A DNA stretch of 64,000 nucleotides. Source: Luteolibacter sp. LG18. Its GTDB lineage: Bacteria > Verrucomicrobiota > Verrucomicrobiia > Verrucomicrobiales > Akkermansiaceae. The notes under the pieces are model-generated. The model ran no database searches and was not told the origin of the DNA. It saw only the letters and a program-made list of their open reading frames with translations. Numbering within the stretch: position 1 is the first letter of the stretch; each line of letters opens with the position of its first letter. Shown here piece by piece: positions 27,529-34,855 of this stretch. The translations under genes were made by a program, and so were the position numbers. Where the stretch lies: contig NZ_AP024600.1 in the NCBI RefSeq assembly GCF_036322585.1, positions 2,232,001 to 2,296,000 of the forward strand, read 5' to 3'.

Positions 27529-27674
27529 TCGCTTACGGTTTCTGGAAGAGTGTGGCTCATGTCGGATCGCTACAAGGATGAGACCGATGCATACAAGCGC
27601 TCCCGCCGCTTTCGGGTAGGATTCGAAACGGCCCCTTTCAACCACCCGCCTCATTGGCGGAAAGGAGCCGTCGC

Positions 27675-28778
27675 ATGCACCCACCGGCCATGAACCATCC
27701 ACTGCCGCACAACCGGATCACCCAGAAAGACGTGGCGCAGGCCCTCCGGCTTGCCCAATCCACCGTCTCGATGGCCTTGCGGGGCGATCCGTCGATCCCC
27801 GTCCAGACCCGCGAGGAGGTGCGCCATGCCGCGCTGGCCATGGGTTACCGGCCGAATCCCACCGGAGCCGCGCTCGCCCATTTCCGCGCCTCGTCCCGCC
27901 ACCAGCCGGTCCAGGCCGCGCTGGCGTGGCTGAATTGCTGGGACGATCCCGCGCGGCTCCGAGGCTACCGTGAGTTCGACTGCTACTGGGAAGGGGCCTC
28001 CAAGGCCGCCCACGGGCTCGGGTACCGGCTGGAGGAGTTCGTCGTGAACCGGGAGCTGACCCTCGAGCGTTTCGGAGAAATCCTCCACGCGCGCAATATC
28101 AACGGGATCCTGCTGCCTCCGGGGCCGACTCCGCCGGGCTGGGAGCGCTTCGATTGGAGCGGGTTCTCCGTCGTCCGCCTCAGCCAACCCGGCCGCAAGT
28201 GCGATCTGGAGGCCTGTGCCGTCGCCGGTGACCAGACGCGCAATGGCATGCTGGCCTTCGATTCGATGCAGAAGCTCGGCTACTCCCGCATCGGCTACTG
28301 TGGCCTCCACTGGCAGGATCGCCTGTTCTGCGCCGGGTTCCTTTGGGGCCAGCAGCAGACGGAAGGGGAGGACCGCATTCCGCCGCTCCTCCTCTCCAGC
28401 GAGCAGCGTGCCGAATGGGATTCCCGGCTGGAAACCTGGCTGGAGGAGTGCCGCCCGGACGCGATCCTCACCGACCTTCCCGAAATGCCCGCCATGCTCG
28501 CGGACGCGGGTCTCCGGGTTCCCCAGGACATCGGCCTCGCCGCCATGGGCACGCTCGATTGTCCCATCGATGCCGGCATCCACCAGAATCCCCACGAGAT
28601 CGGCCGCACCGCGGTGATGATGCTCGCCTCGCTCATCAACGACCGCATCCATGGCGTCCCGCTCATCCGTCAGACGCTCCTGATCGGCGGGAGTTGGGTG
28701 AATGGCTCGTCCTTGCCGGAAAAGCGGACGGCCATCAGCCGCGGACTCTCCGTGGTACCGATCGCGGCCGCGGTTTGA
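27675..28778 (+). CDS. LacI-family transcriptional regulator
   Basis: A 367-residue regulator. The helix-turn-helix is seen at about residues 15-60 (ITQKDVAQALRLAQSTVSMA, then MGYRPNPTGAALA, the hinge-side motif). A periplasmic-binding-protein-like ligand domain follows, ending with the family motif HQNPHEIGRTAVMMLASLI. The start ATG at 27675 has a strong AAAGGAG Shine-Dalgarno at 27661-27667 with a 7-base spacer; a second ATG at 27690 is less well placed. It is transcribed away from the alginate-lyase gene, so it probably represses or activates that gene in answer to a sugar. The segment PGWERFDWSGFSVVRLS fits the family of verrucomicrobial LacI proteins lacking close model homologues. Confidence 0.92.
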   Translation: MHPPAMNHPLPHNRITQKDVAQALRLAQSTVSMALRGDPSIPVQTREEVRHAALAMGYRPNPTGAALAHFRASSRHQPVQAALAWLNCWDDPARLRGYREFDCYWEGASKAAHGLGYRLEEFVVNRELTLERFGEILHARNINGILLPPGPTPPGWERFDWSGFSVVRLSQPGRKCDLEACAVAGDQTRNGMLAFDSMQKLGYSRIGYCGLHWQDRLFCAGFLWGQQQTEGEDRIPPLLLSSEQRAEWDSRLETWLEECRPDAILTDLPEMPAMLADAGLRVPQDIGLAAMGTLDCPIDAGIHQNPHEIGRTAVMMLASLINDRIHGVPLIRQTLLIGGSWVNGSSLPEKRTAISRGLSVVPIAAAV

Positions 28779-29255: not shown

Positions 29256-30244
29256 AGGTCTCCATTCTCATGTCGTTTCACAACGCGGAGGCCACGCTGC
29301 GGGAAACCATGGCCAGCTTGCTCGGCCAGACGTTCCGGGAATGGGAGCTGATCGCCGTGGACGATGGCTCCACCGATGCCTCCGCCGCGGTGGTGGCCTC
29401 GTTCGCCGATCCGCGGGTCCGGCTGCTCCAGCCCCCGGGCCGCGGCCTTGTCCCGGCGCTCAACCACGGCGCCGCCGCGGTCGGCGGCGACTGGATCGTG
29501 CGGATGGATGCCGATGACATCTGCCATCCGGAGCGGATCGAGAAGCTGCTCGCATTCGCGGATACTCGCCCGGATCTCGACGTCGTCGCCAGCCAGGTGA
29601 CCGTGCTGGATCCGCTGGGAGACGGGCTGGTGCGCTTCGTGGAGTGGGCGAACCAATTGCTCGACCACGACGCGATCTCGCGCGGCCGTTTCATCGAGAG
29701 CCCGATCGTGCAACCCAGCGCCATGATCCGGCGTTCCACCTTCGAAGACATCGGCGGCTACCAAGATCCCATCTGGGCGGAGGATCATGACCTCTGGCTG
29801 CGCCTGCTGGAAAGCGGCGTGCGTTTCGGCAAGGTCGCCGAGCCGCTGCTCCAGTGGCGGGATTCCTGGACCCGCCTCACCCGCACCCATCCCCGCTACG
29901 GGGACGATGCCCGCTCCCGCATGCGCGCCCGCTACCTCTCCCGCCTGCCCGGGGTGGGGGAACACGGCATCGTCGTCGCCGGGGCCGGGCCGATCGGCAA
30001 GCTACTCGCCCGTCATCTGCTGGACGAGGGGGTCACCCTCCGCGGCTTCTTCGACGTCCATCCCCGCCGCATCGGCGAGCGGATCCATGGCGCGGAGGTG
30101 GCGGACAACACCCGGCTCGGCAGCCTCTGGCGGGACGGGGTGCTCATCTCCGCCGTCGGCGTGCCGGGCGGGCGGCAGCAGGTGCTCGATCTGGCCCTCG
30201 GTCGCGGTTACCAGGAGGGCGGGGATTTCTGGAGCGTGTGCTGA
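29252..30244 (+). CDS. Family 2 glycosyltransferase fused to a Rossmann-like domain
   Basis: A 330-residue protein. Residues 1-220 are a GT2 (GT-A fold) glycosyltransferase: VSILMSFHNAEATLRETMAS, VDDGSTDAS, RMDADDICHPERIEKL (DxD-type metal site) and ED-containing WAEDHDLWLRLL. Residues 235-330 form a separate nucleotide-binding-like domain with GIVVAGAGPIGKLLARHLLD and LRGFFDVHPRRIGERIHG, similar to the first domain of PglD-type sugar N-acetyltransferases or of sugar-nucleotide dehydratases, without their second domain. GTG at 29252 overlaps the upstream TGA (GTGA). It probably acts on the cytoplasmic face of the membrane. The fused domain is unusual and its role is unknown. Confidence 0.87.
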   Translation: MKVSILMSFHNAEATLRETMASLLGQTFREWELIAVDDGSTDASAAVVASFADPRVRLLQPPGRGLVPALNHGAAAVGGDWIVRMDADDICHPERIEKLLAFADTRPDLDVVASQVTVLDPLGDGLVRFVEWANQLLDHDAISRGRFIESPIVQPSAMIRRSTFEDIGGYQDPIWAEDHDLWLRLLESGVRFGKVAEPLLQWRDSWTRLTRTHPRYGDDARSRMRARYLSRLPGVGEHGIVVAGAGPIGKLLARHLLDEGVTLRGFFDVHPRRIGERIHGAEVADNTRLGSLWRDGVLISAVGVPGGRQQVLDLALGRGYQEGGDFWSVC

Positions 30245-30259: not shown

Positions 30260-30868
30260 ATGTCGGCCCTGCCGGCGGAGTATCACGGAATCGTGAAATC
30301 CTTTGTCCTCCACTGTCTCGCCGGTGCCGCCTGTGTGTCCTCCGCCTTTTCCGAGCCGCTTTTCAACGGCAAGGACCTCACCGGTTGGAAACCGGATGGC
30401 GCGGACGTCTGGACCTTCGCCGACAGCGTCCTCACCGGTCAGAGCAACAGCAAGAAACAGGGCTCCGTCCTGTGGTCCACGGAGAAGTTCAAGGACTTCA
30501 CCCTCGACCTCGATTTCCGTTTCTCCGGCGACGTCGATTCCGGCGTGTTTCTGCGCACGCCGAATGACCAGATCCAGATCGGCACCTCGCGCTCGCTGAA
30601 GCGGGACATGACCGGCTCGCCCTACATCGGCACCACCGGCAAATACGCCGTGGAGGCCCACGACGTGAAAGGCAACCTCAAGGAAGGGGAATGGAACCAC
30701 TTTCGCATCACCGCCAAGGGCAGCCATTACACCGTCGAGTTGAACGGCAAGCAGGTGCTCGACTACTCCTCCGACACCGCCGCCAAGGAGGGCGGCATCG
30801 GCCTCCAGGTCCACCCGGGCGTGGACATGAAAATCGAGTTCCGGAACGTCGATCTGGTGAAGGGCTGA
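30260..30868 (+). CDS. DUF1080 (3-keto-disaccharide hydrolase domain) secreted protein
   Basis: A 202-residue exported protein made of one DUF1080 beta-jelly-roll domain. After a signal peptide (hydrophobic core about residues 14-30, VLHCLAGAACVSSAFS), the domain opens with the typical LFNGKDLTGWKPDGADVW. It continues with DFTLDLDFRFSGDVDSGVF and EGEWNHFRITAKGSHYTVE, and ends with IEFRNVDL. Some members hydrolyse 3-keto-glycosides, others bind carbohydrate; which applies here cannot be seen. The ATG at 30260 has a GGGAGG Shine-Dalgarno five bases upstream. A small GCGGAA/TTCCGC hairpin lies shortly after the stop (about 30888-30908). Confidence 0.87.
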   Translation: MSALPAEYHGIVKSFVLHCLAGAACVSSAFSEPLFNGKDLTGWKPDGADVWTFADSVLTGQSNSKKQGSVLWSTEKFKDFTLDLDFRFSGDVDSGVFLRTPNDQIQIGTSRSLKRDMTGSPYIGTTGKYAVEAHDVKGNLKEGEWNHFRITAKGSHYTVELNGKQVLDYSSDTAAKEGGIGLQVHPGVDMKIEFRNVDLVKG

Positions 30869-31052
30869 GTCCCGTCACCCCGCCCTTGCGGAAATAGTGG
30901 CGTTCCGCGCGGGCGTTGATAGGGTCATCAGTACCGGGTCCATAGGAATTGTGGAATAATCCGCCCGCATGTCGTCTCTTCATCGTGATGACCGCGGCGG
31001 CGTTGTTTGCGCCCGGCATCCGAACCACCATACCAAAACGAACCGAAATCCC

Positions 31053-31352
31053 ATGAAACCGACCCAATCCCTCATCGCCGCCGCCATCGCCGGTGTCTTC
31101 GCCGCCGGTGCCGTGTCCTCCCACGCCGTCCAGATCGACTCCCCGGTGAACGCCGAGAAGGAAGGCTGCCCCGGCAAGGATGGCTGCAAGGGCAAAGACA
31201 AGGACAAGGAAAAGAAGGAAGAGAAGAAGGAAGGCCAGATCGTCGCCGAGGCCGACAAGGACAAGGAGAAGGAAAAGGACAAGTGCTCCGGCAAGTGCAG
31301 CGGCAAGGACGGCTGCAAGGGCAAGGAGAAGAAGGAAGGCCAGATCCTCTGA
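31053..31352 (+). CDS. Bufferin-like Cys-rich RiPP precursor
   Basis: A 99-residue peptide. It has a signal peptide (MKPTQSLIAAAIAGVFAAGA, likely cut after SSHA) and a very hydrophilic Lys/Glu/Asp core. Five cysteines stand at 39, 45, 78, 82 and 88. The core holds two related units, GCPGKDGCKGKDK and CSGKCSGKDGCKGKEKKEGQ, each followed by a Lys/Glu stretch; KKEGQI occurs twice. Exported peptides next to DUF692/DUF2063 genes are bufferins (BufA) or HvfA-type peptides, whose cysteines are changed by the DUF692 enzyme to give copper-binding groups. This one lacks the classical BufA spacing but shares the Gly-Lys-Cys style. Start 31053 is chosen for the signal peptide; an in-frame ATG at 30969 would add a non-hydrophobic leader. 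Confidence 0.8.
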   Translation: MKPTQSLIAAAIAGVFAAGAVSSHAVQIDSPVNAEKEGCPGKDGCKGKDKDKEKKEEKKEGQIVAEADKDKEKEKDKCSGKCSGKDGCKGKEKKEGQIL

Positions 31353-31411
31353 TTTCCCATTCCGGTGGCGTGGGGCGGCTCCGTCCCCGCCACCGGTTTC
31401 CTTTCCTTCCC

Positions 31412-32278
31412 ATGGCTGGCTCCCGTTTCACCGGAGGTGTGTCCCTTGGCACGGGCATCGGCCTGCGGGTGCCCCATTACCGCCACATCCTCGCCGAGAA
31501 GCCGGCGGTGGATTGGTTCGAGATCATTTCGGAAAACTACATGGTGGACGGCGGCCGCCCGCTCGAGGTGCTGGACCGCATCCTGGAGCAATACCGCGTC
31601 GTCCAACACGGTGTGGGCCTGTATCCGGGCAATGCCAACGGCCTGGATTTCGACCACCTGCGCCGTCTCAAGCGCCTGGTGAAACGCACCGGCACCCCGT
31701 GGCTTTCCGACCACCTGTGCTGGGGCAGCGTGGATGGCAGCATGAGCCATGACCTGCTGCCGCTGCCCTTTACCTTCGAGTCCGTCCGCAAGACCGCCGA
31801 GAATCTCCGCATCGCCCAGGACTTCCTGGAGGTGCCGCTGGCGGTGGAGAATGTCAGCTCCTATGCGGAGTTCCATGACGACGAGATGACCGAGTGGGAA
31901 TTCCTCGCCGAGGTGGTGGAAGCCGCCGACATCGGCATCCTGCTCGACGTGAACAACATCTACGTCTCGTCCTTCAACCATGGGTTCGATCCCATGGACT
32001 ACGTCAATTTCGTGCCGCCGGAGCGGGTCGCGCAGATCCACATCGCCGGGCACTCGAAATACGAACGCTTCATCATCGACACCCACGACCACGCGGTGGT
32101 CGATCCGGTGTGGCACATCTACGCCCGCGCCATCGAGCGCTGCGGTTCCGTGGCCACGCTCCTCGAGTGGGACGCGCGCATTCCTTCGTTCGAGGAAGTC
32201 TGGACCGAGGCGAAGAAGTCGGAGCAATGGCGCACCACTGCGGGCAATCCTGATTCCGGAGACCATGTCGCGGCTTGA
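31412..32278 (+). CDS. bufB: DUF692 multinuclear iron oxidase (MNIO, BufB-like)
   Basis: A 288-residue TIM-barrel enzyme of the DUF692/MNIO family. The iron-ligand motifs are all visible in order: FEIISENYM, HGVGLYPG, WLSDHLCW, VENVSSYAEF, LLDVNNIYVSSFNHG, QIHIAGHSKY, DTHDHAVVDPVW and LLEWDARIPSFEEVW. Members use two or three iron ions and O2 to modify cysteines in partner peptides (oxazolone/thioamide or thiooxazole formation). The gene starts 59 bp after the Cys-rich precursor and overlaps the DUF2063 gene by 14 bp, the normal order of bufferin operons (A-B-C). It acts in the cytoplasm before the peptide is exported. The substrate is inferred from context. Confidence 0.92.
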   Translation: MAGSRFTGGVSLGTGIGLRVPHYRHILAEKPAVDWFEIISENYMVDGGRPLEVLDRILEQYRVVQHGVGLYPGNANGLDFDHLRRLKRLVKRTGTPWLSDHLCWGSVDGSMSHDLLPLPFTFESVRKTAENLRIAQDFLEVPLAVENVSSYAEFHDDEMTEWEFLAEVVEAADIGILLDVNNIYVSSFNHGFDPMDYVNFVPPERVAQIHIAGHSKYERFIIDTHDHAVVDPVWHIYARAIERCGSVATLLEWDARIPSFEEVWTEAKKSEQWRTTAGNPDSGDHVAA

Positions 32279-33164
32279 GCATCTCCAGCGCGAGTTCTTC
32301 GCCTCGCTCCAGTTTCCGCTGCGCGGGCCCAGCCGCACGCTCACCGACCTGCCGCCCACCGATGCGCCGCATGCCGGGGAGTTCCTCGCCATCGCGGACG
32401 AGATCATCAAACCCGGGCCGCAGCTATCCTCCGGCGAGCGCTTGGAGCTTTACCACCGCCAATACTGGTATCGCCTGCTCGATTCCATCGGTGAGGATTT
32501 CCCGATTCTCATCCGCATGCTCGGTCAGGAGCGGTTTTGGAGCCTGATCGAGGACTACCTGCTCGTGCGTCCGTCCCGCAGTTTCACCCTCCGCCACCTT
32601 GGCGAGGGCCTGCCGGGATTCGTTGCGGATTGGGACAAGGCCACCGAGGCCGAGCGCCCGTGGCTGTATGCCATCGCGCGCATGGAATACGCTCACATGG
32701 AGGTCTTCGAGCGCGGCGAATGCCGACCGGTCCTGCCCGAGGAACTCGCCACTTGCGTGCTCGTGCTCCAGCCGCACGTCGTCCGTCTCAGCCTGCCTGT
32801 GCCCGCGGACCTGTGCGTGGAGTGGGAATCCTTCACGCCGCTGCCCTTGGAGCCGGTCGAACTCGCCGTCTGGCGTTCGGCCCACAGTCAACCCGCGCAG
32901 GCGCGGCTCCATCCCATCGAGGCGATCCTGCTCGATCGCCTCGCCGCGGGCGGGACCTTGGGGGAGATTTTCGAGCAACCGGTCGAACCCGCGCCCACCG
33001 CCGAGCAGGTGTCCGAATGGTTCGGGGCTTGGCACCAGCGCGGCTGGATCGCCGTGAAACCGGCCACGGAAGAGGTGGTGCCATTCGTTCGCGCGCTCGA
33101 TGAAAGCGGCGACCTCGGCGAGGGCGTGGACAAGATGGGCTCGCAGAGCCGGGCGATGGAGTAG
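32265..33164 (+). CDS. bufC: DUF2063 MNIO partner protein (BufC-like)
   Basis: A 299-residue protein with the DUF2063 (putative DNA-binding/BufC N-terminal) domain. It has LEHLQREFFASLQFPLRG at the start, ERLELYHRQYWYRLLDSIGEDFP, then FWSLIEDYLLVRPSRSFTLRHLG and a WLYAIARMEYAHMEVF helix. In characterised systems this partner binds the precursor leader and brings it to the DUF692 enzyme. The C-terminal third (about 190-285) resembles a winged-helix-like domain seen in longer family members. It overlaps bufB by 14 bp. Its stop codon TAG is inside the left arm of the repeat at 33160-33290. Confidence 0.88.
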   Translation: MSRLEHLQREFFASLQFPLRGPSRTLTDLPPTDAPHAGEFLAIADEIIKPGPQLSSGERLELYHRQYWYRLLDSIGEDFPILIRMLGQERFWSLIEDYLLVRPSRSFTLRHLGEGLPGFVADWDKATEAERPWLYAIARMEYAHMEVFERGECRPVLPEELATCVLVLQPHVVRLSLPVPADLCVEWESFTPLPLEPVELAVWRSAHSQPAQARLHPIEAILLDRLAAGGTLGEIFEQPVEPAPTAEQVSEWFGAWHQRGWIAVKPATEEVVPFVRALDESGDLGEGVDKMGSQSRAME

Positions 33165-33290
33165 CGCGAGGCTCCTGCCAAGTAGCGCGAAGCTTGGCTT
33201 CGCGTGCAGGGTGGAGCGGTTTTGCGGATGGGGCGGGCGCGGTTCGAATCGGGCCGCCACAAGGACGTCGAGCGAAGCTCAGCGCTACTT
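33160..33290. repeat. Inverted REP-like element containing both flanking stop codons
   Basis: AGTAGCGCGAGGCT at about 33160-33173 and AGTAGCGCGAAGCTTGGCTT at about 33181-33200 are direct near-repeats. An inverted copy at about 33267-33290 reads as AAGTAGCGCTGAGCTTCGCT on the minus strand. The second copy can fold as CGCGAAGC-TTG-GCTTCGCG. The TAG stops of both convergent genes (33162-33164 on plus, 33285-33287 on minus) lie in the AGTAGCGC heads. The layout is like the element at 6021-6128. Confidence 0.7.
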
Positions 33291-34760
33291 CACGAACAAT
33301 CCCCGCGCCGCCAGGTGCGCCAGCCATGCTCGCACGTCCAGACGTGGATGGTCCACATGGGCCAGCGCCGCCAGTTCCTCCACCGTGCGCGTGCCGTCCA
33401 TCGCGCGGACCACCGTGCGACGGGAATCGGGCACGGTGCAGGGGGCATGGTAGATGTCCACCAGCGCTTGCTGCCGTTGCACCGCGAGCTGCCGCAGCGT
33501 GTCGAACTTCGGCGTCCGTGGGATGCTGCCATCGAACCGCACTGGCTCGATCCGCAGCTCGATCAGCTTCTGCCGCGCGGCGTCCATCACCAGCCGTGCG
33601 ATCGGCGGCAGGCTCACGGTCGGGTCGAACTGGGCGGCCGGGATTGCCGCCACCCGTTCCAGAATCTCCTGCATCGGCACGGCTTCCGGAGAGGTTGCCG
33701 CGAGCGCGGAAAAGAACGCCACCGCCAGCGGGTGCTCGAATTGTCCCTGCTCCTTGCCCTCGTGGTCCACCAGTCGTCCGCCCTGCGGCGTCCGCTCGAA
33801 GGTGTGCAGGCCGCGCACCGCGAAATGCAGCGCCGTGGCCGTGGTCAGGCGGGTGTCCACCGGCGCGTCCGCGCGACATAGCAGCGAACTGCGGAAGGTC
33901 CGGTTGGTGAGCACGTCGATCGTCTGCTGGAGCATCAACGGATCGCCCGCCAGCGGTGCCAGCGCCTCGGCCGCGCCGGGAGGCAGCGACAGCGGGAAGT
34001 TCGCATGCAGCTCGGATTCCCCGAGGTAGCGCAGCCCGGCGGCATGCGTGTGCGAGATGAACCCGGTGAACGTCACCGGGTGGTTCACCGGCCCGAAATC
34101 GTCGAAGGCGAGGATGTCCGCGCTTTTCGCGAACATGTCGTGCAGCACGCTGTTGAGCTGGACCGCATCCGGCGAATCGCCCGCCGGGATGGTGGCGAGG
34201 TAGGCGAGGATGCCCGCCGGGTCCTGCCCGATGGTGCCAGCCACCGGCCGGGCCGCGAGCTGTCGCACCAGATCCACGACCGTCTGACGCTGCTTCCAGC
34301 CGGGCAGGGTGTTGTAGCTGATCGTCGCGATGCCTTCCGCCGTCAGATGCCGCGCGCAGAAGTCCACCAGCGCCTGGCGGATGTCCGCGGGCACCCACGA
34401 ATAAAACCCGTGGGCCAGGATGAAATCGAAGCCGTCCTCGCCGGGATCGTAGTTCCGGAGATCCGCTTCATGGAACTCGATGTTTTCGATGCCCGCCAGT
34501 CTCGCCGTCTCGCGGGCCTGTTGGATCGCGGCAGGGGAGAAATCGATGCCGATGAATTGGCTGTCCGGCCAGCGCTGGGCCAGCGGCAGCAGGTTGTGGC
34601 CGCTGGAGCAGCCGATTTCCAGGATCCGCGCGCAGGAGGGCGGCGGCACGGTCAGCCCCGCCAGCTTCGCCGCCACCGCGGTCGTCGCCGGATCGCACGC
34701 CGGATGGCTCATCGCCGGGTATGAATGGGATTGGTAGAGATCGAGGACCGTGTCTGACAT
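33285..34760 (-). CDS. SAM-dependent methyltransferase with regulatory domain
   Basis: A 491-residue protein. Residues 1-230 form a class I methyltransferase: ILEIGCSSGHNLLPLAQ (motif I), FIGIDFSPAAIQQAR (acidic motif II) and FDFILAHGFYSWVPADIRQA. A methyltransferase regulatory domain (PF10119 type) follows, containing DDFGPVNHPVTFTGFISHTH, and a C-terminal winged-helix-like part ends RLDVRAWLAHLAARGLF. The substrate is unknown; similar proteins methylate small molecules or proteins. ATG 34760 starts MSDTVLDLYQSHSYPAMSHP, the conserved opening of the family. It is convergent with the bufferin-like operon, so joint regulation is not indicated. Confidence 0.87.
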   Translation of the reverse strand: MSDTVLDLYQSHSYPAMSHPACDPATTAVAAKLAGLTVPPPSCARILEIGCSSGHNLLPLAQRWPDSQFIGIDFSPAAIQQARETARLAGIENIEFHEADLRNYDPGEDGFDFILAHGFYSWVPADIRQALVDFCARHLTAEGIATISYNTLPGWKQRQTVVDLVRQLAARPVAGTIGQDPAGILAYLATIPAGDSPDAVQLNSVLHDMFAKSADILAFDDFGPVNHPVTFTGFISHTHAAGLRYLGESELHANFPLSLPPGAAEALAPLAGDPLMLQQTIDVLTNRTFRSSLLCRADAPVDTRLTTATALHFAVRGLHTFERTPQGGRLVDHEGKEQGQFEHPLAVAFFSALAATSPEAVPMQEILERVAAIPAAQFDPTVSLPPIARLVMDAARQKLIELRIEPVRFDGSIPRTPKFDTLRQLAVQRQQALVDIYHAPCTVPDSRRTVVRAMDGTRTVEELAALAHVDHPRLDVRAWLAHLAARGLFVK

Positions 34761-34855
34761 TGCCGTGCGGTCATAGGAACCGCTGCGGCACCGGATGGCA
34801 CGGAAAATGCGCATGCTTGAATGTCGTGTCCCTGCTCGTCAGTAAATGTCTCCAC

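Follow-up and report, generated by a model that had tools for sequence, protein, structure and literature searches.

Among the described bufferin clusters, sigma genes are present in Buf1 and absent from Buf2, and hundreds of unclassified small Cys ORFs located before MNIO genes have been collected in a supplementary table (PMC12452194). In MNIO enzymes, the residue that follows the catalytic Asp (Phe250 follows it in FonB and Asp251 in BufB2) contacts the residues flanking the modified Cys, and an Asp at this specificity site is typical for Cys-Lys substrates (PMC13097082). Two routes to 5-thiooxazoles have been drawn, one via a 4-thioxo-2-azetidinone and the other by direct imidate attack on the N-terminal side; the azetidinone route requires the N-H of the residue that follows the Cys, and the choice between the routes was left open (PMC13097082). 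FonBC accepted neither Pro nor charged residues after the Cys at the sites tried (PMC13097082). Cys-Pro in MNIO substrates has a precedent in the ChrH-type motif CPACGMG, the enzyme of which does other chemistry (PMC12636315). For HvfA, a signal peptide that doubles as the leader is supported (PMC13419390), and an aggregation induced by copper has been described for fontiphorin. No description of the precursor group reported here was found in the literature, and single members may stand in the supplementary table of PMC12452194.

A three-gene cluster with a cassette-type precursor

The window, a 64,000-nt stretch of the genome of Luteolibacter sp. LG18, contains three adjoining plus-strand genes (Table 1), in which a sequence-only reading had seen a bufferin-type cassette of A-B-C order. 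All three ORFs were located on the same strand in this order, with a gap of 59 nt between the precursor and MNIO genes and an overlap of 14 nt between the MNIO and DUF2063 genes, and the reading was borne out by an MNIO above the BufB cut-off and a partner with a DUF2063 domain. From these sequences, the cluster is recognized as a bufferin/captophorin-type RiPP cluster. No metal gene was seen among the flanking genes of the window, and neither sigma-70 promoters nor terminators were found in the cluster region.

Table 1. Positions of the cluster, its internal features, its neighbours, and related loci (window positions unless a locus is named)
Feature	Position	Strand	Description
bufA-like precursor gene	31053..31352	+	99 aa; signal-peptide-like N-terminus (about residues 1-25), then cassettes 1 and 2
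bufB-like MNIO gene (DUF692/PF05114)	31412..32278	+	288 aa; Ala255 after catalytic Asp254
bufC-like partner gene	32265..33164	+	299 aa; type 1: DUF2063 domain and RRE-like C-terminal domain
Cassette 1, DNA level	31155..31221	+	67 nt; 72% identical to 31272-31338
Cassette 2, DNA level	31272..31338	+	repeat of cassette 1
C-terminal Ile-Leu codons	31344-31349		end of the precursor
Promoter-like element	30952..30982	+	TGGAATAAT-N-TCTCTT; about 100 nt 5' of the precursor ATG; conserved core 30952-30960
LacI-type regulator	27654-28778		neighbour of the cluster
Family 2 glycosyltransferase	29258-30244		neighbour of the cluster
3-keto-disaccharide hydrolase-type protein	30260-30868		neighbour of the cluster
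Methyltransferase with regulatory domain	33285-34814	-	neighbour of the cluster
Second MNIO cluster (L145)	G000:C1:1341390-1342208		window genome
Single-gene DoxX unit (L192)	G000:C1:1668991-1669491		window genome; unlinked to the cluster
Second precursor copy in L170 (G164)	3657-3965 of L170	-	3' of the cluster

The MNIO is a complete DUF692 enzyme, as had been proposed, matching Pfam PF05114 over its full length with 343 bits and the NCBIfam BufB model NF050167 with 334.8 bits (cut-off, 310). The residues that are invariant over all MNIOs compared are kept, including Asp223-x-His225 and Asp254, and the D-x-H pair aligns with Asp242/His244 of HvfB. The expected DUF2063 partner was likewise recovered (PF09836, 51.6 bits; cut-off, 27.2), its scores for the HvfC and NGO1945_C sequence models being below the cut-off. 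A PDB sequence search with the partner gave no match, but fold comparison did: the best PDB folds for its AlphaFold model (pLDDT 86) were 3dee (NGO1945; E 3.1e-6) and 8hi7/8hci (TglI), i.e. MNIO partner proteins of solved structure.

The precursor (P0001; MKPTQSLIAAAIAGVFAAGAVSSHAVQIDSPVNAEKEGCPGKDGCKGKDKDKEKKEEKKEGQIVAEADKDKEKEKDKCSGKCSGKDGCKGKEKKEGQIL) carries five Cys residues, at positions 39, 45, 78, 82, and 88, as well as two GKDGCKGK units and a repeated KKEGQI, exactly as previously described. Its two cassettes read EGCPGKDGCKGK...KKEGQI and DKCSGKCSGKDGCKGKEKKEGQIL, and Cys39 is the only one of the five Cys residues with a Pro next to it. The N-terminus is hydrophobic, as judged by hydropathy alone. 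The precursor scored 13.7 bits against the BufA2 model NF050166 (cut-off, 60), on which canonical precursors of Verrucomicrobia and Acidobacteria reach 30-36 bits, and it matched no Pfam family at E 1, hence not DUF2282/PF10048. In place of a compact domain with 6 (or 12) Cys residues, five Cys residues are spread over two cassettes; no fold was predicted, the structure model being disordered (pLDDT 49). The dN/dS values in comparison with the nearest relative (0.25 for the whole precursor, 0.21 for its mature part, and 0.06 for the MNIO) indicate that the precursor is under purifying selection.

Distribution, origin, and regulation of the cassette precursors

Relatives were sought in 260 family genomes (nearest named records, Akkermansiaceae). 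The search for peptide/DUF692 pairs that the sequence-only reading had suggested identified a close MNIO (76-91% identity) in 22 of these genomes, and a precursor profile matched the same 22 and none of the other 238. As 16 of these precursors went into the profile, matches in their own genomes are expected and the 238 genomes without a match are the informative ones; co-occurrence of precursor and MNIO also depends on kinship, and no P value is claimed. The reverse case, i.e. DUF692 homologues always standing without this precursor, was not what was observed: the precursor gene lies 5' of the MNIO gene, as a neighbour or within one operon, in 20 of the 20 loci with enough upstream sequence. 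The two genes are direct neighbours, 55-139 nt apart, in 15 loci, and are separated by a DoxX gene, an ECF sigma gene, and a small H-x3-C-x2-C zinc anti-sigma (ZAS)-like gene in the other five (L125, L127, L129, L134, and L140). No Pfam family was matched by the small ZAS-like protein of L125. In the remaining two of the 22 loci, the contig ends before the MNIO gene and the precursor is present on another contig, beside DoxX in G164 and at the contig edge in G149. A near-identical second precursor copy is present 3' of the cluster in G164, apparently without a start codon, as ATA replaces ATG.

The 22 MNIOs form one clade in the MNIO tree (support, 89/100). The derived precursors are a lineage-specific family that always occurs with this MNIO clade; the presence of precursor and clade in 22 of the 260 genomes rules out an isolated curiosity. 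A wider spread of the cassette precursor beyond Akkermansiaceae was not borne out, as the 68-73% identical MNIOs sampled from other families of the order all pair with a 6-Cys precursor and carry Asp at the specificity site. Within the derived family, L127 and L129 encode identical MNIO proteins and precursors that differ by one in-frame CKGKDG unit, and G150 carries a 75-nt tandem array (6.6 copies at 92%); judging from such sequences, the number of cassette units varies on the shortest time scale.

A typical canonical precursor of Verrucomicrobia and Acidobacteria reads CKGKNSCKGKGGCKSGDNGCKGKNSCKGKGGC, with gaps of 5-5-6-5-5 between its Cys residues. The derived precursors consist of units of CxGKDGCxGK (gap 5) or DDCP[GD]K placed between Lys/Glu/Asp stretches, contain 3-8 Cys residues, are charged at 49-71% of their mature positions, and show a repeated boundary, KKEGxI or EETVL, at the tandem units. 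Their C-terminus is Ile-Leu in 19 of 20 cases and Ile-Ile in one, and recognition by the enzyme pair or by a protease are possible explanations. C-x5-C is the commonest Cys gap in the derived and canonical groups alike. The earlier statement that neither known spacing fits is right only in part, since C-x5-C is the Buf2 spacing and a foreign Cys spacing is ruled out. The proposal of a new precursor class also stood in part: the precursors lie outside the known models, are internally duplicated, and form a distinct family, but an origin separate from the bufferins was rejected from the enzyme tree together with hhalign, in which the derived precursors matched seven canonical precursors of Verrucomicrobia and Acidobacteria with 98% probability (E 7.8e-14). 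Because both precursor sets are compositionally biased, the hhalign result is weak by itself, and common descent from Buf2 is better supported by the resemblance of the putative signal peptides and by the enzyme tree.

Ahead of its 6-Cys core, the precursor of L077, a member of the canonical clade, has an extra CSGKDGCKGK unit, and in kind it resembles an intermediate. The best reading of these comparisons is that a 6-Cys Buf2 ancestor gave rise to the cassette precursor within Akkermansiaceae, by a route in which the compact core would have been lost, units expanded in tandem, and Lys/Glu-rich disordered spacers gained. The window genome also carries a second MNIO cluster (L145) with a canonical 6-Cys Buf2 precursor and its own DUF2063 partner and DoxX, the MNIO of which falls into the canonical tree group.

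A promoter-like motif precedes the precursor gene in the window (Table 1). Its TGGAATA is located at -91 to -101 from the precursor start in 10 of the 13 loci of the sigma-less sub-clade, compared with an expectation of about 0.1 loci in shuffles and 0.01 in the window. The full TGGAATAAT sequence is present nine times in the window genome, as against once for a reversed-pattern control; most of the other copies have no evident tie to the cluster, but one lies 36 nt 5' of an unlinked single-gene DoxX unit (L192), the product of which is 56-60% identical to the DoxX proteins of sigma-bearing clusters (genus g15 and G164). In the nearest relative, G160, TGGAATAA occupies the same place before DoxX, and in G035 TGGAATA lies 49 nt 5' of its DoxX. 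DoxX and an ECF sigma factor were identified by Pfam in the related G251 operon, and homologous ECF sigma genes are present in G028 (after DoxX), G016, G164, and five genomes of genus g15 and absent from the sub-clade of the window; no homologue of the dedicated ECF sigma was found in the window genome at E 1e-20. From this distribution, we infer that the ancestral cluster comprised A, B, C, DoxX, and the sigma gene, and that in the lineage of the window the sigma gene was lost and DoxX became separated; we also infer that the TGGAATAAT-type motif may keep the cluster and DoxX under common control. Two regulatory arrangements are suggested, namely an own pair of ECF sigma and zinc anti-sigma-like proteins, or a shared promoter-like motif after their loss. 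Since sigma genes were absent from the Buf2 clusters of PMC12452194, the sigma-bearing clusters derived from Buf2 represent a further deviation.

Specificity site, Cys-Pro sites, and proposed product

Alignment with 3bww places the specificity site of the window MNIO at residue 255. Of 78 canonical relatives, 73 have Asp at this site, whereas each of the 22 derived MNIOs carries either Ala (11) or Gly (11). The residue after the Cys changes as well: among 405 sites of canonical relatives, it is Lys in 320, Ala in 72, Ser in 10, Asn in two, Gly in one, and Pro in none, and among 102 sites of derived precursors, it is Lys in 39, Pro in 36, Ser in 15, Asn in five, Asp in four, and Glu in three. 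Because the two changes are correlated, the replacement of Asp by Ala or Gly would have relaxed the preference of the enzyme for Cys-Lys. A one-to-one coupling of Ala or Gly to the precursor type is partial at best. Of the 10 Gly-type enzymes with a complete precursor, eight are accompanied by precursors in which Pro follows every Cys, and two (L123 and L126) by double units with Cys-Lys and Cys-Ser; the distant MNIOs of L180 and L181 have Ala at the site, yet Cys-Lys precursors. Precursors with Cys-Pro only are found, for example, in L128 (G141) and L137 (G143). As several substrate types accompany the change to Ala or Gly, the enzyme change alone predicts none of them. L180 and L181, from another family of the order, and L147 belong to an MNIO group that is more remote (about 50% identity); its precursors are long, with an RRxF Tat-like signal at the start and an abundance of CKG/CAG motifs.

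It is possible, and proposed here tentatively, that this is a natural MNIO clade that modifies Cys-Pro, with the replacement of Asp by Ala or Gly as a natural selectivity switch. As Pro has no N-H, the azetidinone route could not operate at Cys-Pro sites; if the proposal is true, conversion of Cys-Pro to 5-thiooxazole would exclude that route and favour direct imidate attack, or a different product would be revealed. Such enzyme-substrate pairs could therefore serve as a natural mechanistic test between the 5-thiooxazole routes, and derived enzymes that make another product, or skip Cys-Pro, would be informative too.

From a cassette-type precursor, the locus probably produces a bufferin/captophorin-type RiPP that binds metal in the periplasm, and this secreted peptide would probably bind copper. 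By analogy with HvfA and the bufferins, the precursor would be made with a Sec-type signal peptide, which, along with the RRE-like domain of BufC, probably acts as the leader. In the cytoplasm, BufB-BufC would oxidize the Cys residues of the C-x5-C cassettes, most probably to 5-thiooxazoles as elsewhere in the family, with the loss of 4 H for each one formed; given the intolerance of FonBC for Pro and charged residues after the Cys, some of the derived sites may stay unmodified. The peptide would then be exported by Sec and buffer copper in the periplasm, as expected from the family. The number of Cys cassettes would set the number of binding sites, and the Lys/Glu spacers may, speculatively, separate the cassettes from one another and leave them in an extended, soluble form, perhaps as a guard against copper-induced aggregation.

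Other or additional chemistry by the derived enzymes, e.g. at Cys-Pro, or a preference for a metal other than copper is unlikely. The changed specificity site and the abundant Cys-Pro sites leave room for a different modification in these sequences, FonBC is intolerant of Pro, and both one 5-thiooxazole route and the OxT route need an N-H that Pro lacks. Ordinary thiooxazole chemistry is nevertheless favoured by the retention of every invariant MNIO residue; in addition, the enzyme passes the BufB model, the direct imidate route needs no N-H, and the clusters examined showed no additional tailoring gene. It is improbable that the modified peptide is a multi-core precursor from which cleavage within or beside the Lys/Glu spacers would release several small metallophores: tandem units, a repeated boundary, and a near-constant C-terminal Ile-Leu would suit such cleavage, but the unit boundaries are not sharply conserved, no protease gene was seen in the clusters, and the cassette precursors HvfA and MmrA are not known to be cut. 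Distinctly improbable is an ordinary Buf2 bufferin with nothing new but an odd-looking precursor, in spite of the shared Cys spacing and gene order and the homology to Buf2, considering the BufA2 score far below those of canonical precursors, the loss of the 6-Cys core, the Cys-Pro sites, the changed specificity site, and the Ile-Leu end. That the Cys peptide stays unmodified, being metallothionein-like or merely charged, while the MNIO acts elsewhere, e.g. on a canonical precursor, is very improbable, for although the window genome has two MNIO clusters and bufferin precursors without an own MNIO exist (PMC12452194), the peptide strictly co-occurs and is linked in an operon with its own MNIO clade, and 18 of the 22 genomes with a derived cluster show no second, canonical MNIO.

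Under the reading as a metal-binding RiPP with a cassette-type precursor, what had looked like an odd peptide turns into a precursor group that is defined, spans the family, and can be traced to its origin, with a counterpart on the enzyme side and natural Cys-Pro substrates. A further suggestion of this reading is that, in copper-type RiPPs, a compact 6-Cys core can give way to disordered cassettes of variable copy number.

Comparison with known systems

The CxxxxC precursors (cluster X and NedA; PMC12452194, PMC12636315) share with the window cluster a two-Cys motif, a signal peptide (putative in the window precursor), and an MNIO with a DUF2063 partner, but differ in their C-x4-C spacing, a partly lipoprotein-type signal, and their occurrence in Pseudomonadota. 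Buf1 (DUF2282) is likewise a bufferin operon, and its sigma factor association recurs in relatives of the window cluster; the window precursor differs in having no DUF2282 match. The EGKCG precursors (oxazolin HvfA, fontiphorin FonA, and MmrA) resemble the window precursor in their cassettes, two Cys residues per unit, and variable unit number, and their systems in the combination of an MNIO with a type 1 partner. Their spacing is C-x4-C with a Lys before the Cys, whereas the window precursor contains no EGKCG and has C-x5-C units of the form CxGKDGCxGK; FonB and the HvfB-like 3bww have Phe at the specificity site, in contrast to the Ala of the window MNIO. Convergence is the best reading of the similarity in cassette architecture.

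Buf2 (BufA2B2C2; Cys-Lys captophorins) shares with the window cluster the A-B-C order, a Cys precursor with a signal peptide (putative in the window), a BufB-type MNIO, a DUF2063/RRE partner, the C-x5-C spacing, and, in related clusters, DoxX. The differences are that one compact 6-Cys core there is replaced here by five (3-8) Cys residues in tandem Lys/Glu cassettes, that the residue after the Cys is often Pro, Ser, or Asn, that Ala or Gly replaces the Lys-contacting Asp, that the C-terminal Ile-Leu is near-constant, and that some relatives carry ECF sigma and ZAS-like genes, which Buf2 clusters are reported to lack (PMC12452194). The cluster is better called a lineage-specific cassette derivative of Buf2 than a free-standing new class.
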